From the NCBI RefSeq assembly GCF_002097715.1, contig NZ_CP020739.1, forward strand, positions 577,160 through 641,159: a stretch of 64,000 bases of DNA. The letters run 5' to 3'. The stretch comes from Burkholderia ubonensis subsp. mesacidophila (GTDB lineage Bacteria > Pseudomonadota > Gammaproteobacteria > Burkholderiales > Burkholderiaceae). The position numbers and the translations under genes were made by a program. The number at the start of each line of letters is the position of its first letter. Within the stretch, counting starts at the first letter, position 1. Of this stretch, positions 1-55,270 are shown piece by piece. A model generated the notes under the pieces. It did not search any database. It worked only from the letters and a program-made list of their open reading frames with translations, and was not told the DNA's origin.

Positions 1-554
1 GACGTGTATTGCAGAAACGCGATGTCGTGCGCATCGGGCCGCGGCGGCGCGCCACGGCCGGCGCCGTCGGCCTGCGTGTCGTCGGCGAACAGCACGTCGA
101 GCCGCGCGAGCCATGCGGATTCCGCAAGCACCTGGCCGATCGGCTCGGCCTGCGCCCGATCGGCGAGCACCAGCCCGACGCCCGCGTTCTGCGCGATGGC
201 CTCGAGCGTCGCGGCCGAACGCCCTGGGCGCGGCAACGGCGCCGGAATCGCGATCACGCGCGCGGCCAGGCAGCCCAGGAACGCCGCGAGAAAATCCGGC
301 CCCGGCGGAAACAGCAGCAGCGCCATCCTCGGCGCATGGCGCTCGCGCGCGAAGCGCCGGTCGAGGCCGGCCGCGATCGCGTCGGCGCGGTGGACGAGGC
401 CCGCGTAGTCGAGCTGCACGGCGGGCGCGCCCTCCTGCTCCGGCAGGTAGGTAAAGGCGTTGCGGCACGGCTGCCGGTCCGCATGCCCGCGCACGACGTC
501 GACCATCGTTTCCGCGCGGGGCGCCCCGACATGGATGCGGGCGGACGTCGTCAT
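1..554 (-). CDS. Fatty-acyl-AMP ligase (FAAL), N-terminal part, cut by window edge
   Basis: Reading the minus strand from an ATG at 554, which overlaps the stop of the monooxygenase gene (ATGA), gives an open frame of 184 codons that runs off the window. Its N-terminal half fits an acyl-adenylating enzyme: an early tyrosine-containing 'LDYAGL' segment, an 'ALLLFPPGPDFLAAFLG' stretch and an 'IPAPLPRPGR' segment typical of FAAL and AMP-binding proteins. The last visible residues, 'DIAFLQYT', lead into the expected P-loop-like SGSTG motif just outside the window. FAALs adenylate free fatty acids and pass them to an acyl carrier protein. As part of this operon it would prime the megasynthase with a fatty acid. 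An acyl-CoA ligase is an alternative, but the FLQYT signature favours a FAAL. A carrier protein, if fused or adjacent, lies off the edge. Confidence 0.85.
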   Translation of the reverse strand, partial: MTTSARIHVGAPRAETMVDVVRGHADRQPCRNAFTYLPEQEGAPAVQLDYAGLVHRADAIAAGLDRRFARERHAPRMALLLFPPGPDFLAAFLGCLAARVIAIPAPLPRPGRSAATLEAIAQNAGVGLVLADRAQAEPIGQVLAESAWLARLDVLFADDTQADGAGRGAPPRPDAHDIAFLQYT

Positions 555-1492
555 GCGCGCACCGCTTCGGCGGGCTGGCGGATCAGCGCCGCCATCGCCT
601 CCACGGCGTCGACGCGGCGCGCGTGGTCATGCCACAGATGCAGCAGGATGACCTCGTCCGCGTGAAAGCGCTCGGCGAGCGCGCTTACCTGCTCGCGGCA
701 TGCGTCGTGGGTGCCGGACAGCACGACGCGCACGTCGTCCTTCAGCCAGCCTTCGACCAGACGGCGCTGGGCCGCGGCGGCGGCGGCCGTGTCCGCGCTG
801 ATGCAGCTCACAGCCACCGCGACGCGGCCGTCGGGCCGCCGCTCGCGATACGCGGCCGGCACCGCGGGATCCTGCCGGCTGCCCTTGTGGAACAGCGAAT
901 ACGCGTAATGCGCGCCGCGGGCGGCGGCCGTCGCCGCGCTTCCCGGGCCGGAGCCCATGACCCATACGGGCGGCGCGTCGACGAACGGCGGCGTCGCGCC
1001 GCACGCGAATCGGTGCCCGTCGGGAAAACGGCCGTGCAGATAGTCGAGCAGCGCGCCGAGGCGCGCGTCGAAGCTCGCCATCAACGCGCCGACATCCGGG
1101 TCCGCCCGTTCGGCGAGCGCGGCCAGCGCGACGGGATCGAGCGGCACCGCCGCGCACACACCGAGATCGACGCGGCCGGGCGTCAGCGCCGCGAGCGCGC
1201 GAAAGCTCTCCGCGAGCAGCAGCGGATTGCGCACGGGGAGCAGCACGGCCGCCGTGCCCACGCGCAGCGCGCGCGTGCGCTGCGCAAGAGCCGCGACCAT
1301 CACTTCCGGCGCGGCCCAGCAGAAATGGGCTTCGTGATGCTCGGACAGCCAGAGCCGATGGTAGCCGAGCCGGTCGAGCCGGTCCGCGAGATCGAGGCTG
1401 TCGGCCAGCACGGCAGGGCCGACGCGGCCGGGGGCCACGATCCCGAAATCGAGGACCGACTGAGCCGGCCGGGAAGGAACGAAGGTCGGCAT
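551..1492 (-). CDS. Luciferase-like (LLM) flavin-dependent monooxygenase
   Basis: A 313-aa protein with the bacterial luciferase/alkanal monooxygenase alpha-beta barrel pattern. An N-terminal 'LDFGIVAPG' strand is followed by 'GYHRLWLSEHHEAHF' (family motif around residues 45-60), then 'LRVGTAAVLLPVRNPLLLAE', and a C-terminal flavin/phosphate-binding-type segment 'PPVWVMGSGPGSA'. The start at 1492 lies 2 nt after the stop of the PLP-enzyme gene, and the stop overlaps the FAAL start, so the genes are translationally coupled. Enzymes of this family use FMNH2 and O2. Related monooxygenase domains sit next to the aminotransferase domain in cyanobacterial beta-amino-acid pathways such as microginin, where they are assigned alpha-hydroxylation of the beta-amino acyl chain. 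By analogy this free-standing enzyme may hydroxylate the carrier-bound chain. The substrate is inferred, the family is clear. Confidence 0.85.
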   Translation of the reverse strand: MPTFVPSRPAQSVLDFGIVAPGRVGPAVLADSLDLADRLDRLGYHRLWLSEHHEAHFCWAAPEVMVAALAQRTRALRVGTAAVLLPVRNPLLLAESFRALAALTPGRVDLGVCAAVPLDPVALAALAERADPDVGALMASFDARLGALLDYLHGRFPDGHRFACGATPPFVDAPPVWVMGSGPGSAATAAARGAHYAYSLFHKGSRQDPAVPAAYRERRPDGRVAVAVSCISADTAAAAAAQRRLVEGWLKDDVRVVLSGTHDACREQVSALAERFHADEVILLHLWHDHARRVDAVEAMAALIRQPAEAVRA

Positions 1493-1494
1493 CG

Positions 1495-2580
1495 TCAATT
1501 CGGCGTCTCCCACGGTGCGGTTGTGGTTGCGGCATGAGGAAAGGGCATCCCGTCGTCGAATTCGTCCGTGTCGGCGACCTCCCGCGACGGGTCGGGGTCG
1601 ATCGCGCTGTAGGTGTTCCAGAACAGCACCCGCCGTCGCTGCAGGCCCCCGCCCGCGAGCAGCGCGAGCGTCTTCGCCGTGTAGGTCGCCTCGGTGCGGA
1701 ACGCGCCGAGTTGCGCGACGTCGGCGCGCGCGCGTTCCGCAACGACGCCGGCCCGTCCGTAGCCCGGCGCCGCATGCGCGTTCACCCACAGCAGCTCGCC
1801 CCAGCGCGCGGGCGCCGACAGGCCATGGCGGCGCAGCAGCCGCTCGGTCTGCCTCGCCATGCGCAGCAGCTTCGCCGGGCCGGTGACGATCATCGGCACC
1901 ATCCGCACGGCGACGACCCGCACCGCGATGCCGCCGAGCGCGAAGCCGAGATAGACGCCCGCCGCCGTCGCGCAGGTGCCGGTGGGCACGACCACGTCGT
2001 CCGGGGCCGGCATGCTGCCCGCCCGGATCGCCTGCACGACTTCGAGCGCGCCCTCGACTGCGCTCATCACGCCGAGCGGATGATTCGCGCCGGGCGGAAT
2101 CCAGAACGGGCGGCCCGCGCCGAGCCGCGTGAGCCGCGCGCGCAGCAGCGTCGCCGGCACCGCGGCGAAGCTGCCGCAGCGCATCACTTCCATCCCGAAC
2201 GCCGGCAGCAGCCGGCGGTTCAGCTCGACTTCGGGCACGTCGGGCTGCGGCGTCATGACGCCGCGCGTGAGAAAGCCCGTCTGCCGGCCGAACACGGCGG
2301 TCGCGAGCATCTGATGGCTGCCGTACGGCCCCATCGTGACGACGCCGTCCGCGCCCTCCATGCGCGCCTTGCCGAGCAGGAACTCGAGCGCGCGGACCTT
2401 GCTGCCGCCGTACAGCGGATTCGTGAGATCGTCGCGCTTGATCCACAGGCCGGCCTGCCCCCAGCGGCGCGCGAGCGCCGGCTCCTCGGTCACGGGCGTC
2501 GGCTGCATCAGCAGATCCAGCGGTCTCACCAGCGCGTCGAGCTCGGGGACCAGTTCGGGCAGCAGGCGCACGCGGCTCAT
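1495..2580 (-). CDS. PLP-dependent enzyme of the ACC deaminase / D-cysteine desulfhydrase family
   Basis: A 361-aa fold-type-II PLP protein. It has the family substrate strand 'LWIKRDDLTNPLYGGSK' with the presumed PLP lysine at about residue 61, a 'GPYGSHQ' loop, and a 'VVPTGTCATAAGVYLGF' phosphate-binding segment. Relatives deaminate 1-aminocyclopropane-1-carboxylate or eliminate sulfide from D-cysteine; others perform beta-replacements on Ser or Cys derivatives. The ATG at 2580 overlaps the stop of the upstream gene (ATGA), which places it firmly in the NRPS operon. Inside a peptide pathway such an enzyme may supply or modify a non-proteinogenic amino acid, but the sequence does not say which. 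The C-terminal about 30 residues (DPDPSREVADTDEFDDG...) are acidic and probably a tail. Confidence 0.8.
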   Translation of the reverse strand: MSRVRLLPELVPELDALVRPLDLLMQPTPVTEEPALARRWGQAGLWIKRDDLTNPLYGGSKVRALEFLLGKARMEGADGVVTMGPYGSHQMLATAVFGRQTGFLTRGVMTPQPDVPEVELNRRLLPAFGMEVMRCGSFAAVPATLLRARLTRLGAGRPFWIPPGANHPLGVMSAVEGALEVVQAIRAGSMPAPDDVVVPTGTCATAAGVYLGFALGGIAVRVVAVRMVPMIVTGPAKLLRMARQTERLLRRHGLSAPARWGELLWVNAHAAPGYGRAGVVAERARADVAQLGAFRTEATYTAKTLALLAGGGLQRRRVLFWNTYSAIDPDPSREVADTDEFDDGMPFPHAATTTAPWETPN

Positions 2581-3750
2581 CGATGTCCTCCCGACGCGTC
2601 GGCGCCAAGGACGAGCCGCGTCAATTCGTTCACGAGCGCGTCGGCGGCAGGCCGCGCGCCCAGGATGCCGGCGATCCGCGGATCGGCCCCGCCGAGCCGC
2701 TGCACGCGCGCGGCGAGGTCCGGCAGCAGCCGGTTGAGCACCATGACCATCGCGAGCGACGGATTCCGGTATTCCGCCTCGACGTCCGGCGTGTCGCCGA
2801 GCAGGAACTGCCGGCAGGTCTTCGCGAGATCCGCGATCGCCGCAAGCAGCGTCTCCAGGAGTCGCCGGTCGTCGGCGACGTCGGCCGCGCGGCACACCGA
2901 GCCCAGATCCACGAGCCCGCCGTCGATCACCGCGTTCTTCATCTCGAGGCAATGGCCGACGCCGATGCTCTCGACGCTCCCGGGCAGGAAGCCGAGCACG
3001 AGCATCCTCGCGAGCAGCTCGAGCCAGCCGTCGATCGCGGCGGCCGGATCGGTCAGCGCGGACAGCCGCGCGATCCAGCCGGCCTCCGTCCGGGCGGCGA
3101 TCAGCTGCGGCAAATGGGCGACGCGATGCGGGACGCCCGGGTAGTGGTAGACGACCGCGCCCAGGCCGTCGGCGGCGACGCGCTCGACCGTGCGCTGCGC
3201 GCGCGCCGTCAGCAGCGGCAGCAGGCGCGCGAGATGCGCGTGCGCCGCCGCGTCGGGCCAGCGGATCGCGACGAGCGGCAACGGCACGCGCGCGATGCCG
3301 CCGAAGCGCGCGAGGTGCGCGCATTGCACGGCGGCGGCGGCCTGCACGTCTTCCAGTGCCTCGTCGACCGACATCGCGAGCGGAATCTTCTGCTCGTTCA
3401 ACGGAAAATGCTCGAGCGCGGAGAACAGCGAGCGGCCGCGCCCAGGGAACTCGACCCGGTGCGCGCTCAGCATCTGCAAATGCGCGGCGGCGTCGGCCGC
3501 GAGAATCTCGCTGCCCTTGATCGCCAGCACGCCGTCGGCGCGGCGCAGGTAGAACGCGCGCAAATGCCGGTACGGGCGCACGGCGGCGGCGTCGTCGAAC
3601 GGCGCGATCCGGTCGGCCACGGGCACGCCGGCGCGCAGCCCGGCGAGCGCGTCGGCGAGCGCAGGACGCCCGGCGAGCAGCGCCGGCGCGGCGTCGGCGG
3701 CATTCCAGAGGATCGCCGCCGGCGCATGGCGCGTCACGATCGCGGTGACG

Positions 3751-3758
<8 letters not shown>
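2577..3758 (-). CDS. Protein of unknown function in the NRPS operon
   Basis: A 393-aa protein that I could not place in a family. It is Ala/Leu-rich, largely helical in appearance, without a signal peptide or obvious membrane segments. The most constrained-looking part is near residues 255-290: a 'GFLPGSVESIGVGHCLEM' stretch followed by 'KNAVIDGGLVDLGSV'. The Gly-His, Asn and paired Asp residues recall, loosely, the catalytic-loop plus metal-binding-loop layout of kinase-like folds or SelO proteins, but this is a visual impression only. Its ATG at 3758 overlaps the end of the upstream NRPS gene by 8 nt and its stop overlaps the PLP-enzyme start, so it is co-translated with biosynthetic genes and is likely a tailoring, release or self-protection factor. 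Lengthwise the frame looks intact. Confidence 0.75.
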
Positions 3759-8477
<4,719 letters not shown>

Positions 8478-8478
<1 letters not shown>

Positions 8479-11400
8479 CAATGTCCCAGCAAGGTGAAGA
8501 AAACCTGCTCGCCGATCGCCTCGATGCGATCGGCCGCCTGCAGCGCGTGACGGATCTCCGCGCCGACGAGCGCCGCGGCCGGCTCGCCGACGATCGACAG
8601 GTGATGCGCGGGGATGTCGCGACAGCTGACGGCCGCGACGCGCGCCCAGCCCAGATCGGGCGAATCGCTGCGCTGCCGTGCGGCGGCGTCACGGACGGCC
8701 TCGGGCAGCGGCTGCGTCGCGCGCAGCAGCAGCACGCGGCGCGGATAGGGGCCGGGGCGATAGCGGCGCACGGCGGCGGTGTTGCGGCGGAACACGTCGA
8801 ACAGCCGCCGGATCCGCTCGGGCGGCGCGTCGGGCGGCAGCGAGCCGGCCGCGACGGCCAGCTCGCGCAGCCGCTCCAGCGCGGCCGCCGTATCGAGGCT
8901 CGCCAGATCCGGCGTGTCGGCCCCCGCGGTGAACGCGAGCAGCCGGGCGATCGACTGGATCAGCGCGGCGTCGGTGCGCGGGCCGGTGTCGGCGTCCGTC
9001 GCCGCAATGCTGTCGATCAGCGCGAGCAGGCCGACCTCCTCCCGCTGCGCGAGCAGTTGCCGCGCCATCTCGAACGCGACGACGCCGCCCGACGACCAGC
9101 CCGCCAGGTAGTAAGGGCCGTCTCCCGCGAGCGGGCGGATGTGCGCGATATGGAGCGCGGCCAGTTCCTCGACGCTGTCGTAGTCCGCGACGCCTTCGAG
9201 GCCCGGGTCCTGCAGCGCGTAGACCGGCCGCGCCGGGCCAAGCCGCCGCGCGAGGTCGCGGTAGCAGAGCACGTTGCCGCCCGTCGGATGCACGAGAAAC
9301 ACCGGCCGCTCGCCTTCGATCCCGCGATTGACGCGCACGACCACCGGGTCCGACGGCGCGCGCTGCCGCACGAGCGCCGCCTGGGCCGCCACGGTCGGCG
9401 CCTCGAACAGCGACGCGAGCGGCAGGTCGCAGCCGAACTCGCGCTTGATTTCCGCCATCAGCCGCACGGCCAGCAGCGAATGGCCGCCGAGATCGAAGAA
9501 CGTGCGATCGACGCCGATCGGCTGAACGTCGAGCACCCCTTCCCACACGCGTTCGAGCCTGAGCTCGACCGGATCGCGCGGCGCGCCTCCTTCGGGCGAC
9601 GCGTCGGCGCATCCGGCCAGCGCCGCGCGGTCGATCTTGCCGCTGGCGTTCAGCGGCAGCGCATCGAGCCGCCGGCACTGGCCGGGAATCATGTAGTCCG
9701 GCAGCTGCGTGGCGAGCCAGTCGCGCAATTGCGCCGGCGCCACGTTGCGGCCCGCGCGGCAGTCGTACGCGCAGACCAGCCGGGCGATGCCGTTCGCATC
9801 CAGGTCGATGCGCGCCGCCGCATTTGCGACGTCCGGATGCCGCGCGATCGTCACTTCCACTTCGCCGAGCTCGACCCGGTAGCCGCGCAGTTTCACCTGG
9901 TCGTCCGCACGGCCGAAAAACTCGAGTCGTCCGTCCGGACGCCACGCGCCCTGGTCGCCGCTCCGGTAGACGCGCGGCGCGAGCGGATCGACAGGATCGG
10001 CGACGAAGCGCTCGGCGCTCAGCTCGGGGCGGTGCAGATAGCCGCGCGCGGGCGCGGCGCCGCCGATAAGAATCTCGCCGCGCATGCCGACGGGCACCGG
10101 ACGTCCGCGCGGATCGACGACGTACAGCCGGACGTTGTCGATCGGGCGTCCGACCGGCACGGGGTCGTCGGCCGGATCGACCCGTTCCGCGCAGATCTGG
10201 ATCGTCGTCTCGGTCGGGCCGTACAGGTTGACGAGCGCCGCGCGATGCACGGCGGCGAAGCGCCGCGCCAGCTCCGGCGTCAACGCTTCGCCGCCGCAGA
10301 ACACGCGACGCAGGCCACCGCAGGCGGCGAAGCCCGGCTGGTCGACGAGCACGCGCAACAGGCTCGGAACCAGCTGCAGCACGGTGATGCGCGCCCGCGC
10401 GAGCGTTTCGACGAGCGCGGGCACGTCGCGCTCGAGGCCGGGCGGCGCCATCACGAGCCGCGCGCCTCGCATCAGCGGCAGGAAGAATTCCCAGACCGAC
10501 GCGTCGAATCCGGCCGCGGTCTTTTGCAGCACCGCATCGTCCGCATCCAGCGGGAACGCGCGCGTCATCCACGCCATGTGGTTCGCGAGCGATCCGTGCG
10601 TCACCACCACGCCTTTCGGCCGCCCGGTCGACCCGGACGTGTACAGGATGTACGCGGCCTGCTTCGGGCCGGGGATCGGCAGTGCGCCGGCGGCGGCATC
10701 CGCATCGGCTCCGTCGGGCGCGTCCGGATCGATGCACTCGAGCGCGAGATCCTTCGGCAGACCATCCGCCGCGTCCGGCCGCGTCAGCACGATCCGCGCG
10801 CGGCTGTCTTCGAGCATGTAGCGCCGGCGCTCGGCGGGCAACTCGGGCGGCATCGGCAGGTACGCGCCGCCGGCGCGCAACACGGCGAGCATCGCTGTCA
10901 CGAGCGCGAGGCCGCGCGGCAGATGGAGCACGACGGGCGTCTCCGCCGCGACGCCTGCCGCCGCCAGGCGCGCCGCCAGCGCGCGGACCGAGCGCTCGAG
11001 CGCCGCGGCCGTGACGCGCACGCGGCCGTCCTGCACGGCGAGCCGATCCGGCAGCGCGGCGGCCGTGGCCGCCACGGCCAGATGCACCGGCGTCCAGCGG
11101 CCGTGCTCCACCCGCGCGCCCTGGAAATCCGCCGTGACGAGGCGCCGCTCCGCCGCGCCCAGCAGATCCGGCTCGTCGTATCGCGCGTCCGGGTTCGCGA
11201 GCACCGCGCCGAGCAGCGTCGCGAACTGTTCCGCCAGCCGCGTCATTGCGCCGTCGTCGCGCACCGCGTCGGCATGGTGGTCGAGATCCGCGCGCAATGC
11301 GCCGTCCCGCGCGACGAGCACCGTCAGCTTGAGCAGCGCGGGCTCGCCCGCCGTCGTCACGTCGACGACGCGCAGCGGCGCGTCGTCCGGCATCCCGGCC

Positions 11401-12368
11401 GTCAGCACCTCGATCTGGAACGGTGCGAAATGAGCGTCGTCCGGCGGGGCGAGATGATGGCGCAGGTCGGCCGCCTTCAGCCGGGCGTCGGCGGCAGCCT
11501 TCGCGAGCGTCGCGAACGTGCCGTCGTGCGCGGACAACGCCGCGGACAGCGCGAGCGGCACCGGCGCCGCGAGCGGGCCGAGCGCCGTGGCGAGCTCGTC
11601 GAACGGACGCCCGTCGGCGACGATCGCGACCGGCTGCGCGTCGCCGCCCGACAGGCGGCGCAGCAATACCGCCCAGACGGCGGTCAACAGGTCGGCCGGC
11701 ATCACGCCGACGCGCGCGCAGATCGTCCTGACGCGCGCCCCCGTGTCCGCCGGAAGCGGGCAGGCGTGCCGCGCGTGGCGATACGGGGCCGCGCCGCCGC
11801 CGCGCAGCGCCGGCAGCGCCGGCCATGGCCCGTCGACGGACTGCAGCGTCCCCGCCGGCCAGCGCCACGCGCCATCTTCCGCGAGCAGATCGTGCTGCCA
11901 TTGCGCGAGATCGAAGAACTGCAGCGGCGCGTCGCCGTCCGCGTCGACGCCGTCCAGCAACGCGGCGAGCAAGGCGCCGAGGCGCAGCATCGTCGGGCCG
12001 TCGGCGCATAGCGCCGGCAGCGACAGCGTCAGGCCTTGCGCGTCCATCGACGCCTGCAGCGGCGACGCGCCGGCATCCGGCGCGGCGCCGGCGTCCAGGC
12101 GCAGGCGCGCGTCGCCCGACGCGGTCTGCAGCGGCAAGCGCATCTCGGGCAAGCGCGGGAAGCACGCACGCAGGATCTCGTGGCGGCCGATCAGCGCGTT
12201 CAGCGCCGCGTCGACCGCCTCGCGCCGCGGCGGCGCGGCGGTCCACACGAAACGGGCGGTCACCCGCTGCGCCGCCGGCGCCCGCCCGGCGTCCACCAGC
12301 ATGCAGTGGCGCTGCTGCGCGGGCGACAGCCGGAAGCCGTTCAGCGCGGTCTCGCTCGTCGTGCTCAT
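8478..12368 (-). CDS. Nonribosomal peptide synthetase, degenerate C-A-PCP-TE (termination module)
   Basis: A 1296-aa NRPS. Residues about 13-410 are condensation-like, but the HHxxxDG motif is replaced: the HH positions read P118-A119, while D123-G124 remain. The A domain (about 430-915) has YTSGSTGRPKG and NLYGPTETT; by-eye pocket residues are D-A-W-Q-F-G-L-I-Q, close to Gln-type codes. The PCP serine is S964 (GGHSLL). The thioesterase (about 1020-1290) has GWSSG with nucleophile S1092 and a late AHH (about 1255) as the likely catalytic His. The TE makes this the last module, releasing the peptide by hydrolysis or cyclisation. The start at 12368 overlaps the dioxygenase stop (ATGA). The terminal C domain of the neighbouring C-A-PCP-C protein may supply the missing condensation activity. 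Confidence 0.93.
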
Positions 12369-13432
12369 GCGAGGCGCTCCTTCAGCGCCGCCATCGCGGC
12401 CGCGTCCAGCTCCACCGCGTCGCCCATCGCGGCCAGCACCCGGCGCTCGCCGGTGAACGGCGCGCGGCCGTGCGCGACCAGCATGTTGTCCGCGATCAGA
12501 AAATCGCCCTGCTGCCACGGGAACGCGACCGTCTCGCGCGCATACGCGTCGCGCAGGTGGGCGGCAACGTCGTCGGGGATCGTCGCGCCGTCGCCGTAAC
12601 AGGTGTTGTACGGCAGGCTGTCGATCCCGAAATCGGCCTCGAAGCGGCTGCGCACCGGCTCGTGCAGGCTCGAGCTGTGCCAGAACGCGACGTGGTTGAA
12701 CCACAGTGCGTCGCCCGTGAGCGGATGCGCGTGGATCGCCGGCCGGACCTGCCGCGTGCGCAGCCAGCCATTCGGCAGCCACTGCCACGACACGTCCATC
12801 GCGCGCAGGTAGCGCTCGAGCGCGTCGACCGTCCCGACCGCGTACGCGTGCTCCCAGCTCGGCCCCATCCCGGAGCCGAAACAGCGCGCGAGCTGCCAGC
12901 CGCGGCGGCGGAATTCGTCGCGCACCGCGGGGTCGATGCGGGCGAGCACGCGCCGCACGTCGGCGAGCGGCGTCTCGCCGCCCGTCGCCGACGGCGTCAT
13001 GCAGCCGAAGAAGATCCGCCCGGGCCAGGTCTTCACGTACGACAGCTCGTTGTGCAGCGCGATCGCGTATTCCTGCGGAAAGTAGGTCGACGTGTAGATG
13101 CCCTGCCCGAGATGCTCGCGCGGCGTCGCCTTTTCGATGTAGCTCATCAGGCTCACGCCGGTCGCCGCGACCGTGCGCCGGAACGCCGCTTCGTCGGCGA
13201 TGCCGAAGCCGCGGAACAGGATCGCGCCGTGCCGCGGCAGCCAGCCCGCGAGCGTGTCGCCGTGTCGCTCGAGCCACGCGGCGGCATCCACGCCCGCCAG
13301 CGCCGGCTCGACCAGCAGCGGCAGCGCGCCGTCCGCGAACAGCGGGCGGGTCAGGACCATGCTGTCCGCCGTCACGTTGATCGTCTGGCGCCGGGCCAGC
13401 TTCAGGGGCGTCGATGGAGAGGAAGGTGACAT
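12365..13432 (-). CDS. TauD/SyrP-type Fe(II)/2-oxoglutarate-dependent dioxygenase
   Basis: A 355-aa protein of the TauD/TfdA clan, SyrP-like branch. The facial triad is visible as H127-x-E129 in ALHNELSY and a distal His at about 321 in DNMLVAHGRAPFTGERR, whose following Arg would bind 2-oxoglutarate. An early LPRHGAILFRGF strand is typical of the clan. SyrP relatives hydroxylate the beta carbon of a carrier-bound amino acid, classically aspartate. The gene directly follows the megasynthase whose A domain carries an Asp-like code, so hydroxylation of that residue is the simplest proposal. ATG at 13432 is chosen because the first recognisable conserved strand begins soon after; upstream frame extension overlaps the previous gene. 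It sits 25 nt after the megasynthase stop and overlaps the next NRPS start. Confidence 0.9.
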   Translation of the reverse strand: MSPSSPSTPLKLARRQTINVTADSMVLTRPLFADGALPLLVEPALAGVDAAAWLERHGDTLAGWLPRHGAILFRGFGIADEAAFRRTVAATGVSLMSYIEKATPREHLGQGIYTSTYFPQEYAIALHNELSYVKTWPGRIFFGCMTPSATGGETPLADVRRVLARIDPAVRDEFRRRGWQLARCFGSGMGPSWEHAYAVGTVDALERYLRAMDVSWQWLPNGWLRTRQVRPAIHAHPLTGDALWFNHVAFWHSSSLHEPVRSRFEADFGIDSLPYNTCYGDGATIPDDVAAHLRDAYARETVAFPWQQGDFLIADNMLVAHGRAPFTGERRVLAAMGDAVELDAAAMAALKERLA

Positions 13433-13457
13433 GTCGGTCGTTCTCGTGGGCGTGTGC

Positions 13458-22538
<9,081 letters not shown>

Positions 22539-22552
22539 CGGCGGCCTCGGCT

Positions 22553-23248
22553 TCAGCGCTGGTCGTGAACGTCGTGACCGATCTGGCGGAGGATCGAGGT
22601 CTCGGTCTCCTGAAGCGTGTCGTGAATGCCGGCCCAGATCCGTTCGCCGTCGTCGGCGTGCGATCCGGAAGCGATGCGGCTCTGCAGGCGGCCGATCAGT
22701 TCGAGATCGGCCATGCGCTCGCCGAGCGCGAAGCCGTGCACGCGGGTTGCGCCGGCGAACGTGCCGTAAAGCGCGAACGGGCCGTTCGTCATCACGGCGG
22801 CGGCCTCTCGCGCGCGCTCGAGGAACCGGCCCGCGCGCGCGGGATCGACCTTGATGTTCAGGTAATACAGATATTCGGCCGGTGCGTCGCGCGGCGGCAC
22901 GGGCGACAGGCCCAGATCGATCCGGTTGAGGACCGACGTGCTCATGTCCAGCACGCAGTTCTGGAATTCGCCCAGCCTGATCGCGCCTTCGTCGCCGTAG
23001 ACGTCGGCCATGACCTTGTCGAGCGAGACCATCTCGTCCATCGCGCCGAGCGAATCGAGCGGAACGATGATGTACACCGCGAGCGACGGGCCCGCGACGG
23101 TTGCGTAGGCGCTCCACTCGAGCCTCGCCGGATGCTGGCGATACGCGAAGGCAACGTGGCGGGCCAGTTCCTTGAACGCCTCGTATTTTTCGCGCCGGAT
23201 GGTCGCACGAACGAACAGGCAAAGCGGGGCTGGAAACGTCCAGATCAA
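22553..23248 (-). CDS. Protein of unknown function, possible tandem dimeric alpha/beta-barrel (NIPSNAP-like)
   Basis: A 231-aa protein not recognised with certainty. It seems to contain two similar halves: 'LFVRATIRREKYEAFKELA' with a following helix and strand near residues 10-75, and 'YLYYLNIKVDPARAGRFLER' with a similar helix near 128-190. Each half reads as strand-helix-strand, which resembles a ferredoxin-like dimeric alpha/beta barrel (ABM, NIPSNAP or EthD types). No signal peptide is seen. The only start in this frame that keeps the first strand is TTG at 23248, without an obvious Shine-Dalgarno sequence, so the start is uncertain. It lies 14 nt upstream of the megasynthase and would be cotranscribed with it. 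A small oxygenase, cyclase or resistance role is possible but unsupported. Confidence 0.65.
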   Translation of the reverse strand: MIWTFPAPLCLFVRATIRREKYEAFKELARHVAFAYRQHPARLEWSAYATVAGPSLAVYIIVPLDSLGAMDEMVSLDKVMADVYGDEGAIRLGEFQNCVLDMSTSVLNRIDLGLSPVPPRDAPAEYLYYLNIKVDPARAGRFLERAREAAAVMTNGPFALYGTFAGATRVHGFALGERMADLELIGRLQSRIASGSHADDGERIWAGIHDTLQETETSILRQIGHDVHDQR

Positions 23249-23353
23249 GGGCGGACTCGCATGGGCTCGTGAGTGGAATGCGAAGGACGCGGCGCCGTTG
23301 CGACGCGCCCTTCGCGCGCGATCACTGCTGTTGCTGCGAATGCTGCGGGAACC

Positions 23354-23581
23354 TTACTTCTCGATCTTCAGCAGGACCGCGCCGCTCCAGTCAGCGCCGC
23401 CGTTCGCGACGTGGACGTTCAGGCAGTTGGTCGACTCGACCCACTCGAGCGTGGTGACCGAACTTCCAAGATCGGCGCCGTCGGCCCGCAACGTGCCGTT
23501 CGGATCGGCCAGGAGTTTGGAGCGATAACCGGGATCTTTAACAGCTCTGCCCAATGCGGAAACGATGTCGTCGTATAGCAT
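23354..23581 (-). CDS. Small protein resembling nitrile-hydratase-like leader peptides (NHLP)
   Basis: A 75-aa protein starting at ATG 23581, preceded on the minus strand by an AGGTGG Shine-Dalgarno at suitable spacing. Longer upstream extension is unlikely because the codon use changes. The sequence follows the NHLP pattern: a helix 'IVSALGRAVKDPGYRSKLL', then 'ADPNGTL', then an acidic segment and strand 'TLEWVESTNCLNVHV', ending with ANGG and 13 further residues. In RiPP systems NHLP leaders are recognised by modifying enzymes and cut after a small-residue (often GG) site, leaving a core peptide. Here the post-GG tail is ADWSGAVLLKIEK, which lacks Cys or Thr. No RiPP maturase is visible in the window. 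It may instead be a small accessory protein for the synthetases. It is the first gene of the operon. Confidence 0.7.
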   Translation of the reverse strand: MLYDDIVSALGRAVKDPGYRSKLLADPNGTLRADGADLGSSVTTLEWVESTNCLNVHVANGGADWSGAVLLKIEK

Positions 23582-26300: not shown

Positions 26301-26816
26301 TCAAGCGTTGATATGTTCGACGCATATGCATAGTCGACCGATGTGAATCGCGACGCCGCCGGGAAGCGCATGTCGAGGACGTATCGACACGCAGAAAAAC
26401 TCTTCCACGGGCACGGTCGCGTTCTGCAGCAGCGCGGCGTGCGACGTGATGTCGAGGGAGTAGAGCAGCCCCTCGCTCGAATCGTCCGAGCTTGCCCGCC
26501 TGAGTCCGAACAAGCCGACGCTGGCCAGATAGGTGTCCTGGGGGTGGCCGGCATGGGCTGAGCTTTGGGTCCGCAGAAATGCTTGCAACACGGTCGCGTC
26601 GTGCGTGCCGCGGACGTGCTCCAGCATCAGGTAGAAACGGAACAGGGATGCGTCGCCGGCGTGGGCGGCCTGCTCGGATGCCAGTGCGACGACGGCCGGG
26701 CTGTCGATGCGTAGCTGGACCACCACGCCGTCGCCTTGCACGAGGATTGGCGCGTCGCTCGATGCAATCACACGCAGCGAGCGAAGCGAGCCTGTCACGT
26801 TGGTTGGGTCGGTCAT
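26301..26816 (-). CDS. Stand-alone tyrosinase C-terminal-like domain protein
   Basis: A 171-aa protein that aligns by eye with the last about 170 residues of the tyrosinase two genes upstream. Shared landmarks include 'LMLEHVRGTHDATVLQAFL' versus 'LQLENVRGTLDSTVLGVYV', 'VGLFGLRRAS' versus 'IALFGLRRAS', 'YSLDIT' versus 'YVLDIS', and matching C-terminal strands ending in 'IHIGRL' versus 'IEVGRV'. Such all-beta domains in plant polyphenol oxidases and related bacterial enzymes cover the copper site and must be displaced to activate the enzyme. This free copy has no copper ligands of its own. Its start at 26816 overlaps the stop of the membrane-protein gene (ATGA). Likely a partner or duplicated shield of the tyrosinase. 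Confidence 0.75.
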   Translation of the reverse strand: MTDPTNVTGSLRSLRVIASSDAPILVQGDGVVVQLRIDSPAVVALASEQAAHAGDASLFRFYLMLEHVRGTHDATVLQAFLRTQSSAHAGHPQDTYLASVGLFGLRRASSDDSSEGLLYSLDITSHAALLQNATVPVEEFFCVSIRPRHALPGGVAIHIGRLCICVEHINA

Positions 26817-27613
26817 ACGAGTCCATGTTCCCGAGCTTGGCGTTCAGGGCGTTGCCCCCGTTGACGCAGCACGCGCAACTTGACGTGCACGATTTCGCGG
26901 CGCAGCCAAAGGCCGGCCGTGGGAAGCCCCCTGAGCCGCCATGCGGGCATCCTCGGTGGGTCCAGCCGCTCGCAAAACGCCAGCGCCGAAACGACGGCCA
27001 TCGCCGCCAGTTGCCATCCAGGCAGCAGGACCGTCGCCAACATCAGCGCCCAGCAAGTGCCGACGCACCACAGCCCGTGCCGCAGCCCGAGCCGAAGGGC
27101 ATCGACATCGGCCTTCAGCCCGAAAGGCGACAGCGGACGGTGCGCGTGACAGCGATTGAGGCACCGCTGCTTGAACGGCGAGACGTGCCAAACGCAAGCG
27201 ACTAGCGCTGCCAACGCGGCCGGACCGTACGAATTCGCCATCGCGTCTCTCACGGCCGTTTCAAGCGCCGTCATCGCCAGGCCCGCCATTACCCAGACGG
27301 CCATGAAGCCCAGCAAGAACAGTGAAACGGCACGCCAGCGTCGGCTGGCAAAGGTGCTGACACGAATGTGCACGATGGCAGGCAGCGTCATCGGGCCCAT
27401 CATGGCCACGATCATCAACAGCCAACCGCGGCTGGCCGACAGCATCCAGCCTGCGGTCAGCCACGTGGCTCGTTGCGTCGAACTGCACAACGCGTCCGAC
27501 AGCCCCCCTTGCCCAAACCCGAGCGACGACGCGGCAATGGCGATCCAGGCAGCAGCGCTTGCTCCAAGAACACCGAACTGCACGTGGGCAAGCTCACGCC
27601 GATTGAGGATCAC
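26813..27613 (-). CDS. DUF2182-type integral membrane, predicted metal-binding protein
   Basis: A 266-aa polytopic protein with five to six hydrophobic segments: near 14-34, 55-80 ('GWLLMIVAMMGPMTLPAIVH'), 95-115, 128-142, 175-200. The hallmark features of DUF2182 are present: the MMGPM motif in a membrane helix, 'SPFKQRCLNRCHAH' with Cys/His residues after the fourth helix, and 'GLWCVGTCWALM' in a later helix. These Cys, His and Met residues suggest metal binding in or near the membrane. The Arg-rich C-terminus is probably cytoplasmic. It begins 12 nt after the tyrosinase stop, so the two are cotranscribed. By context it could move or hand over copper for the tyrosinase; this role is inferred, not shown. 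Confidence 0.82.
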   Translation of the reverse strand: MILNRRELAHVQFGVLGASAAAWIAIAASSLGFGQGGLSDALCSSTQRATWLTAGWMLSASRGWLLMIVAMMGPMTLPAIVHIRVSTFASRRWRAVSLFLLGFMAVWVMAGLAMTALETAVRDAMANSYGPAALAALVACVWHVSPFKQRCLNRCHAHRPLSPFGLKADVDALRLGLRHGLWCVGTCWALMLATVLLPGWQLAAMAVVSALAFCERLDPPRMPAWRLRGLPTAGLWLRREIVHVKLRVLRQRGQRPERQAREHGLV

Positions 27614-27625
27614 GACGCGCCCCGC

Positions 27626-29260
27626 TCAATCGGGCTGCCGATAGACGCTCACCCGGCCTACCTCGATCGTGCCTTTCGGAGGCAGCGCGCGTCGCGCCAG
27701 CAGGGTAACGGTGATGTTTCCGCTCGGCAGCTGGTCTTCCAGATACAGTTGGTCCAGCAAGCGAGAGATGTCCAGGACGTAGGTCAAGCCGTCCCCGCCA
27801 TGCGCACCATCCGCCGTGCTTGCGCGCCGCAGGCCGAACAGCGCGATCGCGCCGGCCTGATGCGCGCGCAGAAGCGCCGGACTGCTGGCATCGGCGGGCA
27901 GGTTGACATAGACGCCCAGCACGGTCGAATCCAGCGTGCCGCGCACGTTCTCCAGCTGGAGGTACACCCGATCGGGCGGCGCCGAGAGCGACGCTTGCGC
28001 GAGACTCTTGATCACGCGCGCCTGGACATCCGCGTCCAATCGCACACTGATGGGCCCGGTGCCGGCTCCCGAGATCTGAACGGCGCCGACGCTGGCGCCC
28101 AGCAGCTCGGCAGGCGCTTGCGTCGCCCTCGGGCTGGGCGCGCGGTGCGCTACCGTGGCCGGGAGGCCGGCGACGCCCAACTTCTGCAGTCTCAGCAGCA
28201 GCGGCGCCGTCGCGGCCTGGACGGCCGTGGCAAGGTCCTGGTAGGTGTAGTCCAATGTGGCAAGGCTGGTCACGTCCCGGGGGACGAACTGCCAGCTTTC
28301 GCCGCCCGGCATCGGGACCACGAACAACTTCACGGGGCCTTTGAGCCAGTCCGTGTCCTCGGGGTTGGCGTTGCCCGCCGCGTTCCACGAAGCCCACATA
28401 CGGTCGATGTTGCAGTGATGAAGGTAGAAGATCGGGTCCAGTCCCGCCGTGCCGGGGTCGGCCATCAAGCCGAAATCGGTGTCGCTGATCTCGCCCCCCG
28501 TGTACACATGGACCAGGTCGTGCGGATTGTGTTCCATGTTTCCGTGGTGGCGGCCCGAATGGGAAAACTTGGTAACCGGACCACCGAATCCCGGCAGCGG
28601 GGTTGACTGATCCGACCCGGTGTAGAGGTCGTTGGTCATGCAGGCTTGCGTCACGTCCTCGTTGGGCATGCCGGAACCCTGCTCGTTCGCCGGCCCCCGC
28701 GTGTCCGTGGGGATGTAGATGTCGCCGTTTCCATCCGGCCCATACCGCATCGCCACATACAGAGGATTGGGCGTGGTTCCGTCGGGCATCGTCTGCTGGG
28801 CGAAAGCCGGCGGCATCTGCGCGTCGGCGCCGTGCGCTCCGCCAAAGTAGTTCCAGTAAGGGAGCGCCCAGGTTGCGGGGCCGCCCAGGCTCACGATGTC
28901 GGCGCGCAACTGAGCCTCGAGCGCCAGCAGATATCCGCGGTGCCATGGCAGGAAGTACCAGGTGCCATGCTGGCACTGATTCCAGTACCGCTCCCGGGTC
29001 GCCAGGTCCGGCACCGGCGTGGTCGGCACGCTCGGCGGGCTTTTGATCTGGCTCCATCTCGGATAGGTGTCCGGAGGAATCTTCCTGGTCGTATCGGGCG
29101 TGATGTACTCGCCATGAATGGCGGCGAAGAACCACCAGCTGGCCGGGTCGTCCAGCGCTCGCTCCATCATCTTCCCGACGCCCCTCGCGTACCAGAGGAG
29201 ATCCTCATTGTTGAAATCACCGCCCGCATTCCAGGCGTCCTTGCGAACAAAGCTGGCCAT
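27626..29260 (-). CDS. Tyrosinase / polyphenol oxidase (type-3 copper)
   Basis: A 544-aa dinuclear copper oxidase. CuA ligands are H49 (AAIHGEY), H98 (QCQHG) and H107 (LPWHRGY); the Cys at 96 next to H98 may form a thioether as in related enzymes. CuB ligands are H247 and H251 (NPHDLVHVYTGG) and H281 or H282 (FYLHHCNIDRMW). The family oxidises phenols or catechols to quinones with O2. Residues about 370-544 form a beta-rich C-terminal domain, also present as a separate protein downstream. There is no signal peptide, so the enzyme is probably cytoplasmic or exported by an unusual route. It heads a four-gene operon. Start at 29260 is preceded by a purine-rich AGGAGACC-like Shine-Dalgarno (minus-strand reading of ggtctcct). 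Confidence 0.93.
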   Translation of the reverse strand: MASFVRKDAWNAGGDFNNEDLLWYARGVGKMMERALDDPASWWFFAAIHGEYITPDTTRKIPPDTYPRWSQIKSPPSVPTTPVPDLATRERYWNQCQHGTWYFLPWHRGYLLALEAQLRADIVSLGGPATWALPYWNYFGGAHGADAQMPPAFAQQTMPDGTTPNPLYVAMRYGPDGNGDIYIPTDTRGPANEQGSGMPNEDVTQACMTNDLYTGSDQSTPLPGFGGPVTKFSHSGRHHGNMEHNPHDLVHVYTGGEISDTDFGLMADPGTAGLDPIFYLHHCNIDRMWASWNAAGNANPEDTDWLKGPVKLFVVPMPGGESWQFVPRDVTSLATLDYTYQDLATAVQAATAPLLLRLQKLGVAGLPATVAHRAPSPRATQAPAELLGASVGAVQISGAGTGPISVRLDADVQARVIKSLAQASLSAPPDRVYLQLENVRGTLDSTVLGVYVNLPADASSPALLRAHQAGAIALFGLRRASTADGAHGGDGLTYVLDISRLLDQLYLEDQLPSGNITVTLLARRALPPKGTIEVGRVSVYRQPD

Positions 29261-31713: not shown

Positions 31714-33417
31714 TCACTTTTCCGCCGAGAACGCGTCCGACAGCTGACGCGCCCGTTTCACGTCGTCGCCGTGCAGGTAGATCGACGTGGTCGAGATCGA
31801 CGCGTGACGCAGATTATCGCGCACGGTCGTCAGCTCGGCGCCGCGCGCGAGCGCGTGGGTCGCGTGCGTGTGGCGCATCCAGTGCGGGCTGGCTTGCCGC
31901 AGCTTCGCGGCGAGCGCCGGGTTGTCCGCGTCGACGAGGCCGGCCGTCTGCCCGAAGAAGCGCTGCAGCACTTTCCAAAGCCGCACGCTGGTGATCGCGG
32001 CGTCGCCGTCCTCGGTCAGGCTCGGGATCAGCGGCGTATCGGGCCGCCAGCGGCTCGGCGTGACCGGCAGGCGGCGCGCGACCAGATGGCGGTCGAGCGC
32101 CGCCCGGGCCAGCGGCGGCAACGCGACCCTGGCCGCCTTGCGCCCCTTCCCGACGACCTTGATCCACGGATCGCCGTGCGCATCGGTCTCGATGTCGCCG
32201 AGCGTCGCGCCGACCAGCTCGCTCGCGCGCAACCCCGTCGCATAGCCGAAGTCCAGGATGAAACGCAGCCGCTGCGCCGCCGCCGGCTCCCAGCCGTACG
32301 ACCATTCGAGCCCGTCGGCAATCGTCCTGACGAGCAGCCACTCCCCTTCGGTAAACGCATGCGACGTGTCGAGCACAATCGACCGGCGCGTATCGCGCAC
32401 CTTGACGCCGGCGAACGGATTCGCGAGCAGATAGCGCTGCTCGATCAGCCAGCGGAACAGCGCGCCCAGCACGGACAGCGTGTACGCGGCCGAGCGCGCC
32501 GACAGGCCGCCGGAGAACGGGCGCCAGTCGGCCGCGCCGCGCGGCCGGACCGGCCCGATCCAGCGTTCGGCCGGCGTCGGGCGGCGCAGGAACGCGCGGT
32601 ACGCGACCGCGTCCTCGGTGGTCAGCGACGACAGTGCGCGGCCGCGCTCGACGATCGCCCACAGGATCAGCCGCTCCGCTTCCTTCCGGTACGCGCGCCG
32701 GGTCGCCGTCGATTCGTGCAGCGACAGCCACGCCTGCACCGCCTGGTAGTCGTTGTCCGCGTCGAGCGTGCAGGTGGCGCGCGGCGCGCGGAAGGTCCCG
32801 GCCGACCCGTCGACTTCGTGCGGCAACCGGAGCTGTTCCCACGGGACGATGCCGCTCGGCGGCGACACCGCGACGAGCGCCCGCGCGCGCGCCGTCAGTT
32901 CCGGATGCGCGGCGAAGAATGCCTCGATGCGGCGTGCGCTGGTCAGGCCGAGCCCGGGAACCGCCTTCCACCACTGGCGACGGCGCGGAATCCGCACGGT
33001 GAGATCGGCCAGCGTCGCAATGCCATGCGCCCGCAGCGCAGCGACCGCCCGGGCGGGCAGCCAGTCGTCGACCGCATCGCCGATGTGCGGCGACGGCGCG
33101 CGCGCATGCCGCAGGATCTCGATCGCTTCGGCGACCGCTTTTGCTTCCCGTAAACGCTCACCTTCGGGGTGCGCCAGCACGTCCGCGAGATCGGGCCGGC
33201 GCGCTGATTGCGCGGCGCGCACGAGGCGGCGGCGAATGCCGCCGAGCACACCGCGCGCCGAGCGCCGTGCGCCCAGCCGGTCCGGCAGGTAGCGTTCCAC
33301 CGCGTGACGGACGGTCATCCCGGCATACCACGCGCGCAGCGCGGCAAGCTCGTCGGCATCGGGAAAGCCGGCGGGAGCGGGTTCGGTCGGGCGTGGCGGG
33401 AACGGGAGCGGGTTCAT
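31714..33417 (-). CDS. Tyrosine recombinase / integrase with DUF3701-type N-terminal region
   Basis: A 567-aa protein. The catalytic half (about 330-567) shows the tyrosine-recombinase residues: Arg in 'GYATGLRASELVG', Lys in 'VVGKGRKAARV', the H-x-x-R box 'HWMRHTHATH', and the nucleophile region 'SISTTSIYLHGDD'. A SAM-like core-binding domain precedes it. The N-terminal about 190 residues contain a helix-hairpin-helix-like stretch 'AVPGLGLTSARRIEAFFAAH' typical of the DUF3701 region found with this integrase class in Burkholderia and relatives. No attachment site, tRNA gene or excisionase is visible nearby, so it is either an orphan chromosomal recombinase or a relic of an element. ATG at 33417 is chosen over an upstream one because the AT-rich extension lacks coding character. 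Confidence 0.9.
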   Translation of the reverse strand: MNPLPFPPRPTEPAPAGFPDADELAALRAWYAGMTVRHAVERYLPDRLGARRSARGVLGGIRRRLVRAAQSARRPDLADVLAHPEGERLREAKAVAEAIEILRHARAPSPHIGDAVDDWLPARAVAALRAHGIATLADLTVRIPRRRQWWKAVPGLGLTSARRIEAFFAAHPELTARARALVAVSPPSGIVPWEQLRLPHEVDGSAGTFRAPRATCTLDADNDYQAVQAWLSLHESTATRRAYRKEAERLILWAIVERGRALSSLTTEDAVAYRAFLRRPTPAERWIGPVRPRGAADWRPFSGGLSARSAAYTLSVLGALFRWLIEQRYLLANPFAGVKVRDTRRSIVLDTSHAFTEGEWLLVRTIADGLEWSYGWEPAAAQRLRFILDFGYATGLRASELVGATLGDIETDAHGDPWIKVVGKGRKAARVALPPLARAALDRHLVARRLPVTPSRWRPDTPLIPSLTEDGDAAITSVRLWKVLQRFFGQTAGLVDADNPALAAKLRQASPHWMRHTHATHALARGAELTTVRDNLRHASISTTSIYLHGDDVKRARQLSDAFSAEK

Positions 33418-33679
33418 TCCGTCAGTGTGGCATAAAAATGATCGCATTAAGATAACTTTCATTATCTTGATGAATCGATTTTCATCCAAAACATACCCAC
33501 ACGAAAATACGCGTCACATCGGCGCTGTCGCGCGATCCGGTTCCTGCCGGCATTTTCGATCCGGATGCCCGGATTTCCGGGCTCAAGGCATCGGATACCG
33601 ACTGCCGGATGCGTCAGAATGAATCACCCGCGCAAAGCAGGCGCGTCACGAATCAACCGACCGCCAAGGCAGGCGACAC

Positions 33680-55267: not shown

Positions 55268-55270
55268 CAC

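Follow-up and report, generated by a model that had tools for sequence, protein, structure and literature searches.

The nearest known counterparts of the locus reported here include the iturin, mycosubtilin and bacillomycin pathways (MycA, ItuA, BamA), which it resembles in FAAL and ACP loading, in a KS-AT-ACP module without KR or DH, and in the in-line class-III aminotransferase (AMT) that follows. The product of the iturin-type line is a cyclic heptapeptide. Puwainaphycin and microginin offer a second point of comparison through a luciferase-type oxidase and, in the accessible part of the puwainaphycin literature, through separate FAAL and ACP genes and an AMT placed between PKS and NRPS. 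Within Burkholderia itself, the accessible text of PMC4906002 records 'PKS-3100_1300_1500', an orphan clade I PKS-NRPS hybrid of B. pseudomallei and B. thailandensis, named after its protein sizes.

The window, by which we mean the whole stretch of 64,000 nucleotides of Burkholderia ubonensis subsp. mesacidophila that was analysed, carries at positions 1-23581 a tight minus-strand operon that extends 1.5 kb beyond the left window edge. From 22538 leftwards, adjacent genes overlap or are separated by 25 bases at most. The features, from the first gene of the operon onwards, are as follows.

23354..23581, minus strand: NHLP-clan protein, 75 aa, the operon's first gene (NF038399, PF14407)
22553..23248, minus strand: tandem ABM-like (dimeric alpha/beta barrel) protein, 231 aa, unnamed family
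13458..22538, minus strand: NRPS1, 3026 aa, KS-AT-ACP-AMT-C-A(Asp)-PCP-E (Pfam, A code, motifs and tree)
12365..13432, minus strand: TauD/TfdA Fe(II)/2-oxoglutarate dioxygenase, 355 aa (PF02668, 2.1e-44)
8478..12368, minus strand: NRPS2, 1296 aa, degenerate C (HHxxxDG lost)-A(Gln)-PCP-TE (Pfam, A code, motifs and tree)
11109..12368, bounds approximate, minus strand: degenerate condensation domain of NRPS2, member of a hydroxylase-associated clade
3751..8478, minus strand: NRPS3, 1575 aa, C-A(DLYDFSLIW, residue X)-PCP-C (Pfam and A code)
2577..3758, minus strand: U393, SelO-like kinase-fold protein, 393 aa (fold comparison)
1495..2580, minus strand: PLP enzyme of the D-cysteine desulfhydrase/ACC deaminase group, fold type II, 361 aa (PF00291, 9.7e-24)
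551..1492, minus strand: MsnO8-family luciferase-like oxidoreductase, 313 aa (TIGR03558 above cut-off; 4us5, 7.3e-26)
3..554, minus strand: FAAL, N-terminal 184 of 608 aa (FAAL profiles), the remainder lying left of the window

The FAAL gene runs on to window position -1272 (L001:15888-17714) and is followed by a 92-aa ACP at -1547 to -1269 (L001:15613-15891). The first-pass annotation had described a FAAL, a KS-AT-ACP module without reductive domains, an embedded class-III aminotransferase, three NRPS modules and one TE in an overlapping minus-strand operon, and Pfam and NCBIfam profiles bear this out: the operon contains three A domains, one each in NRPS1, NRPS3 and NRPS2, and a single TE, and Pfam places no KR, DH or ER between AT and ACP. 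NCBIfam matches 2 to 8 of the FAAL are FAAL models, every one below its curated cut-off, and the AMT of NRPS1 resembles the GSAM family. Overlooked at that stage were the genes for the 393-aa, PLP, ABM-fold and NHLP-like proteins, all part of the conserved set, and the fact that the N-terminal C domain of NRPS2 is without HHxxxDG.

In contrast to the iturin-type lines, FAAL and ACP are here separate proteins whose genes lie at the distal end of the operon, and TauD, PLP, luciferase-like, ABM-fold, NHLP-like and SelO-like proteins are added. Only three residues would be incorporated instead of seven, given three A domains (Asp type, DLYDFSLIW and Gln type). Compared with puwainaphycin and microginin, the locus encodes its MsnO8-family oxidase as a separate protein and not as an in-line domain, has an E domain as well as a degenerate C domain in addition, and lacks a methylating PKS. 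The likeness to 'PKS-3100_1300_1500' lies in its being a PKS-NRPS hybrid whose named sizes fit proteins of 3026, 1296 and 1575 aa; the identification rests on these sizes and on two homologues, a B. thailandensis-labelled one for the ABM gene (90%) and a B. pseudomallei-labelled one for the NHLP gene (91%), so that close homologues carrying a label of the B. pseudomallei group exist for two genes of the family. Because of this fit in size, the locus has probably been catalogued already under that name, as far as the accessible text allows the comparison. The earlier remark was that no described Burkholderia product with this exact domain order is known; the literature searched yielded no product of this locus, and the locus itself is probably a named orphan. 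The NRPS/PKS 'cluster 11 (II1089-1108)' of B. pseudomallei, as it appears in the accessible part of PMC9040570, may or may not be the same locus. Three known compounds were set aside: the cluster for AFC-BC11 has no C domains according to the accessible text of PMC12186527, malleipeptin has 12 residues in that of PMC9581180, and no graminine (GrbD/GrbE) siderophore family occurs among the Pfam and NCBIfam matches.

The reading that we favour, and regard as reasonably probable, is an orphan hybrid line for a beta-amino-acyl lipotripeptide, beta-aminoacyl - D-Asp - X - Gln, assembled in the order NRPS1 > NRPS3 > NRPS2, with TauD acting on Gln. The sequence itself shows which parts are present, in which order they lie and how they are conserved, and the predicted beta-amination by iturin logic is well supported. 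A fatty acid would be loaded by FAAL together with the free ACP and extended by one malonate on the KS-AT-ACP module, leaving the 3-ketone, and the in-line class-III aminotransferase would convert this to the 3-amine, after which the first C-A-PCP-E would add D-Asp. The chain would then skip the next NRPS gene and pass to NRPS3, which would add X; the last C domain of NRPS3 would join the chain to Gln carried on NRPS2, and the terminal TE would release an acid or close a ring, possibly via the 3-amine. As a prediction, the course proposed by the first-pass annotation (fatty acid plus C2, beta-amination, then D-Asp, X and Gln, with one TE) is supported, the D configuration following from the E domain.

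The A codes, extracted by motif anchors, are DLTKVGHVG for NRPS1 (Asp type), DLYDFSLIW for NRPS3 and DAWQFGLIQ for NRPS2 (Gln type); across the family the Asp-type and Gln-type codes are kept, and DLYDFSL(I/V)W is found in 7/7. The last domain of NRPS1 is an E domain by its position inside a 100/100 E clade, and the PCP motifs, GGDS upstream of E in NRPS1 and GGHS in NRPS3, are present in 7/7 each. NRPS3 is placed in the middle because the PKS start sits in NRPS1 and the only TE in NRPS2. The first C domain of NRPS3 falls in a starred 14-row tree group together with all four non-family C domains that directly follow an E domain, but the same group also holds six non-family domains with no E seen directly before them, which counts against this placement.

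The core gene order, from the ABM protein to the ACP, is kept in all six fully read loci of alpha- and betaproteobacteria, and because of this recurrence the arrangement is not a matter of chance. The gene set comprises ACP, FAAL, luciferase-like oxidase, PLP enzyme, the 393-aa protein, two NRPSs, TauD dioxygenase, the KS-AT-ACP-aminotransferase-C-A-PCP-E megasynthase, the ABM-fold protein and the NHLP-like 75-aa protein. With the SelO-like protein included, it recurs in distant bacteria and is a coherent natural-product family; if the favoured reading is true, this defines a cross-order family of beta-amino lipotripeptide clusters and a testable structure class. The ABM gene was found in 7/7 genomes and the NHLP-like gene in four of the seven, as far as the examined stretches show, and TauD is 51-83% identical to its counterparts in six relatives. 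Motif counts among the seven are uneven: the KS active-site pattern occurs in 5/7, the ACP pattern in 6/7, the AMT lysine pattern in 3/7, the AT malonyl and luciferase patterns in 2/7 each, and the two FAAL patterns in 3/7 and 0/7, which we take to reflect the strictness of the patterns. At the DNA level, window positions 1-23600 share only short pieces with plasmids (5 records). Neither Undibacterium nor Niveispirillum was named among the matches listed in the literature search.

Among the alternatives, the one that fares best, while still unlikely in our estimation, is the full microginin/puwainaphycin logic, in which the luciferase-like enzyme hydroxylates carbon 2 and the product is an aminopeptidase-inhibitor-like lipotripeptide with a 2-hydroxy-3-amino acyl group. 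The luciferase-like gene adjoins FAAL in seven relatives (L009-L015), and PuwE, whose aminotransferase and monooxygenase are in line, is the proposed maker of such a 3-amino-2-hydroxy acyl group in the accessible text of PMC4219810. A solved chain named PuwE matches the luciferase-like enzyme weakly (4.7e-6). However, the enzyme scores 193.6 bits against TIGR03558 (MsnO8; cut-off 166.95) and only 43.5 bits against TIGR04020 (MupA/Atu3671; cut-off 244.45), which puts it in the MsnO8 group and not in the MupA/Atu3671 group (NCBIfam seco_metab_LLM); it is the latter that is presumably tied to the beta-amino-alpha-hydroxy logic. Moreover, the oxidase is a free protein, the AMT of NRPS1 being followed by a C domain and by no in-line monooxygenase, and it could equally act on X. 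On these grounds, the microginin-type alpha-hydroxylation suggested earlier is weakened.

The hydroxylation of Asp, also suggested earlier, has shifted: a hydroxylase is present, but Asp is not its likelier target, as the partner of TauD is the degenerate C domain in the Gln module. In this domain [PS][AS]LC[AG]D[GA] replaces HHxxxDG in 7/7 family members, and it belongs to a 100/100 clade of 11 domains, none of which has HHxxxDG; the motif is also lost in six other tree domains outside the clade. Of the 12 TauD loci that the tree covers, seven contribute seven of these 11 domains (four cyanobacteria, Methylocystis, Klebsiella and Bradyrhizobium, the last a long branch of unsure placement). 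Taken alone, the domain has no match among PDB sequences at 0.001. The TauD of the window has HNE in its translation, the first H.[DE] match being a chance HGD. The catalytically dead N-terminal domain of NRPS2 probably docks TauD, which would then beta-hydroxylate Gln on its carrier. By description, the domain is like the 'interface' condensation domains of beta-hydroxy-Asp pathways, which are also without HHxxxDG and beside a TauD hydroxylase; unlike theirs, the adjoining A domain reads Gln and not Asp. If true, this would be a Gln-directed version of the pairing of TauD with a dead C domain. Since the degenerate domain sits on the Gln module, we consider Gln the likelier target, but given that the A code following it is of the Asp/Asn type in five of the six readable among the seven TauD loci, and Gln-type here, the Asp of NRPS1 may still be hydroxylated. 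We consider it distinctly unlikely that TauD makes beta-hydroxy-Asp for a metal-chelating lipopeptide: TauD and the degenerate domain do resemble pairs at Asp-type modules and the line includes an Asp module, TauD of a Vibrio locus has a TonB siderophore receptor as its neighbour, and in the relative L011 a TonB-dependent receptor barrel (PF00593, 2.9e-22) is encoded some 5 kb beyond the ACP gene, but there are three residues only, the degenerate domain is on the Gln module, and no receptor was noticed beside this operon or in the stretches of the other relatives, in a survey of ORFs read mostly by eye.

Under the favoured reading, X is probably a non-standard amino acid of a size to fit a Cys pocket. 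DLYDFSLIW and five variants of it are absent from the literature searched; the nearest A domain met (47% identity) is coded DLYNFSLIW, on a Klebsiella plasmid, a code which we take to be of the Cys type. 2,3-Diaminopropionate was considered for X because the Cys-like pocket contains an acidic residue and because a PLP enzyme is present. A plasmid cluster of Janthinobacterium lividum (sbnA, sbnB, TauD, FAAL, ACP), with one of its two NRPS genes truncated by the end of the stretch read, has DLYD in none of the 10 A-domain places read there; a DNA match to the A3 region of the window lies inside a domain coded DLYNNALTY. The PLP enzyme, which has 4d8t as its closest solved chain (1.4e-24) and carries the GGSKVR lysine motif in 7/7, may supply X, with the SelO-like protein as an ATP-using transferase on the X precursor.

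This second protein, U393, models as a SelO-like kinase fold at about 12% identity to SelO, and Foldseek returns YdiU at E 2.6e-3, with Rio1 and PRPK ahead of it. Its likeness to SelO/YdiU, a protein AMPylase/UMPylase, consists in the kinase-like fold and in the conserved Lys, Glu, Asn and DxG positions. In contrast to SelO/YdiU, its genes lie in operons beside FAAL/PKS, and at the sequence level there is no match: no Pfam or NCBIfam model indicates homology to SelO, and a profile search of PDB sequences gave a single chance match, Cse1 at E 0.21. In SelO, the catalytic Asp stands just before the metal-binding Asn; in U393 the conserved Asn is preceded by Lys or Gln, by motif reading only. We tentatively propose, as a possibility that we would not call likely, that U393 is a dedicated biosynthetic enzyme transferring a nucleotide or phosphate to the X precursor, followed by PLP beta-substitution, that the product is beta-aminoacyl - D-Asp - X - beta-hydroxy-Gln, and that the NHLP-fold protein is a helper whose RiPP role has been lost. 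If so, X would be an amino acid not yet described, and the further U393 branch that other Burkholderiaceae carry next to FAAL-PKS genes would mean that this enzyme class is employed there in parallel. Should the favoured reading be right, the pathway would provide a route to the substrate code DLYDFSLIW. As judged by title and abstract, the literature search gave nothing on point linking the SelO fold to NRPS, and within that scope U393 would, on the favoured reading, be the first known SelO-fold protein inside a PKS/NRPS pathway.

It is improbable that the island has fallen silent or is in decay and yields no product. No exporter gene lies directly downstream of the operon in this genome, as opposed to ABC exporters in L009, L011 and L012 and RND pumps in L013 and L015, and a close form of U393 is found in this genome alone among the 65 of its genus sample; but the large ORFs are open, the genes overlap tightly and most active-site motifs are intact, and the two homologues labelled B. 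thailandensis and B. pseudomallei likewise argue against decay.

Least credible is a ribosomal/nonribosomal hybrid with the NHLP-like ORF as RiPP precursor, to which the matches to NF038399 (1.1e-6) and PF14407 (1.3e-6), both under the curated cut-off, a GG ahead of the last 13 residues of the window copy and the different, longer tail of the homologue P0072 could point, but no variable core is seen, as 12 of 13 alignment rows, the window copy included, stay conserved right through the C terminus, P0072 differs from P0068 in the tail alone and may reflect a frame error, and the Niveispirillum copy has AG instead of GG. Judged by title and abstract among the matches listed, the literature search held nothing on point on NHLP proteins with NRPS or FAAL. 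Homologues of the NHLP-like protein occur at the same place in L023 (76% identity) and L024 (54%), whereas those of L011 and L012 (51%) lie some 3 kb beyond the ACP gene.

Translation together with Pfam and NCBIfam domain calls resolves a single minus-strand operon, transcribed right to left across the window. The window covers 577160-641159 of the 641159-base contig C3, up to its right end, in a genome of 7.84 Mb and 4 contigs.

Genes of the operon (positions in the window; negative positions lie to its left, in the flanking stretch L001)
23354-23581, minus: NHLP-like protein, 75 aa, first operon gene
22553-23248, minus: ABM-fold protein, 231 aa
13458-22538, minus: NRPS1, 3026 aa, KS-AT-ACP-aminotransferase-C-A-PCP-E
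12365-13432, minus: TauD, 355 aa
8478-12368, minus: NRPS2, 1296 aa, C-A-PCP-TE
3751-8478, minus: NRPS3, 1575 aa, C-A-PCP-C
2577-3758, minus: U393, a 393-aa protein modelled with a SelO-like kinase fold
1495-2580, minus: PLP enzyme
551-1492, minus: luciferase-like enzyme
554 to -1272, minus: FAAL, 608 aa, running past the left window edge
-1269 to -1547, minus: ACP, 92 aa, left of the window

From the ABM gene onward, the genes overlap or are separated by at most 25 bases, and 105 bases lie between the end of the NHLP-like ORF and the ABM ORF. The G+C content is 73-76% across 1-22000 as against 52-70% over the remaining window. A phage-integrase-family protein with DUF3701 is encoded at 31714-33489, 8 kb off the operon start, and this integrase and the G+C step may be the sign of a mobile region. 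Immediately downstream of the operon ACP, a 152-aa AMP-binding fragment (L001:14964-15422) is perhaps the leftover of another acyl-activating enzyme.

We class the cluster as a variant among beta-amino lipopeptide pathways. The domain observations of the first-pass annotation are correct, and its core inference, a putative beta-aminoacyl lipopeptide pathway, holds up well. NRPS1 carries KS-AT-ACP with an embedded aminotransferase, the domain search found no reductive domain in it, and the three NRPS modules with their one TE are C-A-PCP-E on NRPS1, C-A-PCP-C on NRPS3 and C-A-PCP-TE on NRPS2. What our analysis adds to that annotation is an order for the chain, the association of TauD with a dead condensation domain in the Gln module, the recognition of a SelO-like protein, and the finding that helper genes are conserved and that the cluster spans distant taxa.

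The A-domain pockets were read via motif anchors on our own alignment, with positions in GrsA numbering. The window codes are DLTKVGHVG (NRPS1), DAWQFGLIQ (NRPS2) and DLYDFSLIW (NRPS3), and across the window and six relatives they read DLTK[VI]GH[VI]G, DAWQ[FC]GL[IV][QE] and DLYDFSL[IV]W, respectively. We take the first to be of Asp type and the second of Gln type, and assign no substrate to DLYDFSLIW. Because the PKS start is on NRPS1 and the only TE on NRPS2, NRPS3 is placed in the middle of the line, despite its gene being the last of the three. A maximum-likelihood tree built from 66 C and E domains puts the first C domain of NRPS3 into a starred group of 14 rows, together with the four non-family C domains found directly behind an epimerisation (E) domain, which come from Leptolyngbya NIES-3755 (two), Streptomyces NBC_00335 and Methylomagnum; for the remaining six non-family rows of that group, an E domain directly before was not seen. 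This placement fits a possible role of the domain as acceptor of the D-Asp chain.

The N-terminal condensation-like domain of NRPS2, here C*, carries [PS][AS]LC[AG]D[GA] where HHxxxDG is expected in all seven family copies. It lies inside a 100/100 clade of 11 domains, none with HHxxxDG; the seven clade members from outside the family represent 7 of the 12 tree loci retrieved via the TauD protein. Since six domains elsewhere in the tree also miss the motif, and the Bradyrhizobium member sits on a long branch, loss of HHxxxDG alone is not the mark of the clade. In these seven loci, the A domain behind C* is of Asp/Asn type in five of the six readable cases (Bradyrhizobium, Leptolyngbya boryana, Nostoc, Klebsiella and Leptolyngbya NIES-3755); that of Methylocystis reads DSALIAEVW, and that of Trichormus is partial. 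In Leptolyngbya boryana, an NRPS with a terminal C is followed by TauD and then by a protein starting with C*-A, a split like that between the last C of NRPS3 and NRPS2. In two further TauD loci, of Azospirillum and Vibrio, the Asp-type A domain is preceded by another altered motif, HHIAGDY; both fall outside the C* clade. We term C* interface-like only, after domains described in 2019 as cited in PMC12230676. TauD most likely acts on the Gln held by NRPS2, with Asp a possible alternative target. Of the D-Asp (or hydroxy-Asp)-X-Gln-like chain proposed earlier, the Asp- and Gln-type codes and the E domain support the residues, and hydroxylation of Asp is less likely than that of Gln. A Klebsiella pneumoniae plasmid (NZ_CP026396.1, 1-12895) bears an NRPS locus where TauD occurs with a dead condensation domain of C* type and an Asp-type A domain; another A domain there is 47% identical to that of NRPS3, and an IS5-like transposase sits between its NRPS genes.

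Two peptide patterns of U393 matched 38 stretches in a scan of 84,980 species genomes. Seven of these are relatives, with identities to the window of 55-83% in Niveispirillum and about 30-61% in the others. Gene order from the E or TauD gene through ACP is identical in L009, L010, L011, L012, L013 and L015, and L014, ending at a contig end, covers the NRPS3 A domain to ACP. The upstream halves, from 6 of 7 genomes, keep the order ABM, KS, AT, ACP, aminotransferase, C, A, PCP, E, TauD, NRPS2, NRPS3 in 6/6, and the ABM gene is present in 7/7. Downstream of ACP lies an RND pump (L013, L015) or an ABC exporter that carries a cNMP-binding domain (L009, L011, L012). Both L011 and L012 also have a phosphopantetheinyl transferase there, and L011 a thioesterase and a TonB receptor barrel besides.

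U393 matches occur in 5 of 299 Burkholderiaceae-sample and 6 of 65 genus-sample genomes; in both samples the close form is confined to the window's genome, the other matches reaching 33-37%. A homologue 85% identical (P0002) represents a cluster of 347 member sequences, listed from the lgn source only, where a near relative of U393 seems well represented. U393-type genes also occur in a second, unlike pathway of other Burkholderiaceae (L032:3592-18333, also L029, L030 and L031), which in L032, the one of these four covered by profile tests, comprises an amidohydrolase, an HMGL-like synthase, an asparagine synthase, the U393-like protein and FAAL-ACP-KS-AT-DH-KR-ACP-TE.

The NHLP-like protein matches NHLP/Frankia peptide models weakly, under cut-off. 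Its gene is at the operon head in L023 and L024; in L011 and L012 it sits about 3 kb past the ACP gene, and it was not found in the fetched stretches of the other three genomes. Because 12 of 13 aligned rows are conserved over their full length, we take it, on the alignment, as a small conserved protein rather than a precursor with a variable core; our guess at its role is docking or chaperone. Among its homologues, P0072 equals P0068 over one stretch, then switches to a different tail.

Esmaeel et al. list an unknown hybrid of Burkholderia clade I, 'PKS-3100_1300_1500', named for its protein sizes, sharing no pattern with curated Norine peptides and located on chromosome 2 as the flattened table reads (PMC4906002). 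The window proteins of 3026, 1296 and 1575 aa fit these sizes, the ABM protein is 90% identical to one labelled Burkholderia thailandensis, and the NHLP-like protein is 91% identical to one labelled B. pseudomallei, found on contigs up to 3.3 Mb, which fits a chromosomal location. By these two labelled homologues, the source is probably a Burkholderia species distinct from both. Judged by protein sizes and the labelled homologues, the window operon is likely this catalogued cluster. Malleipeptin, with 12 residues, and AFC-BC11, whose cluster is without C domains, are different products. A FAAL review names occidiofungins as Burkholderia products with FAAL (PMC11837247).

A small copper enzyme locus adjoins the operon at 26813-29260 and encodes a tyrosinase carrying DUF7868 along with a PpoB2 copper-chaperone-like protein. 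The stretch 34208-40687 encodes a YadA-type trimeric autotransporter adhesin of 2159 aa. A class I aminoacyl-tRNA synthetase of I/L/M/V type (43970-46615, 881 aa) could be an extra copy; the 64-kb window holds no tRNA genes. Two neighbouring ORFs at 52655-58021, 870 and 916 aa long, have a G+C of 52-54% against the high G+C of the genome; they encode RdrA (PADLOC 2.2e-239) and RdrB (1.9e-296), the two paired proteins of RADAR anti-phage defence.
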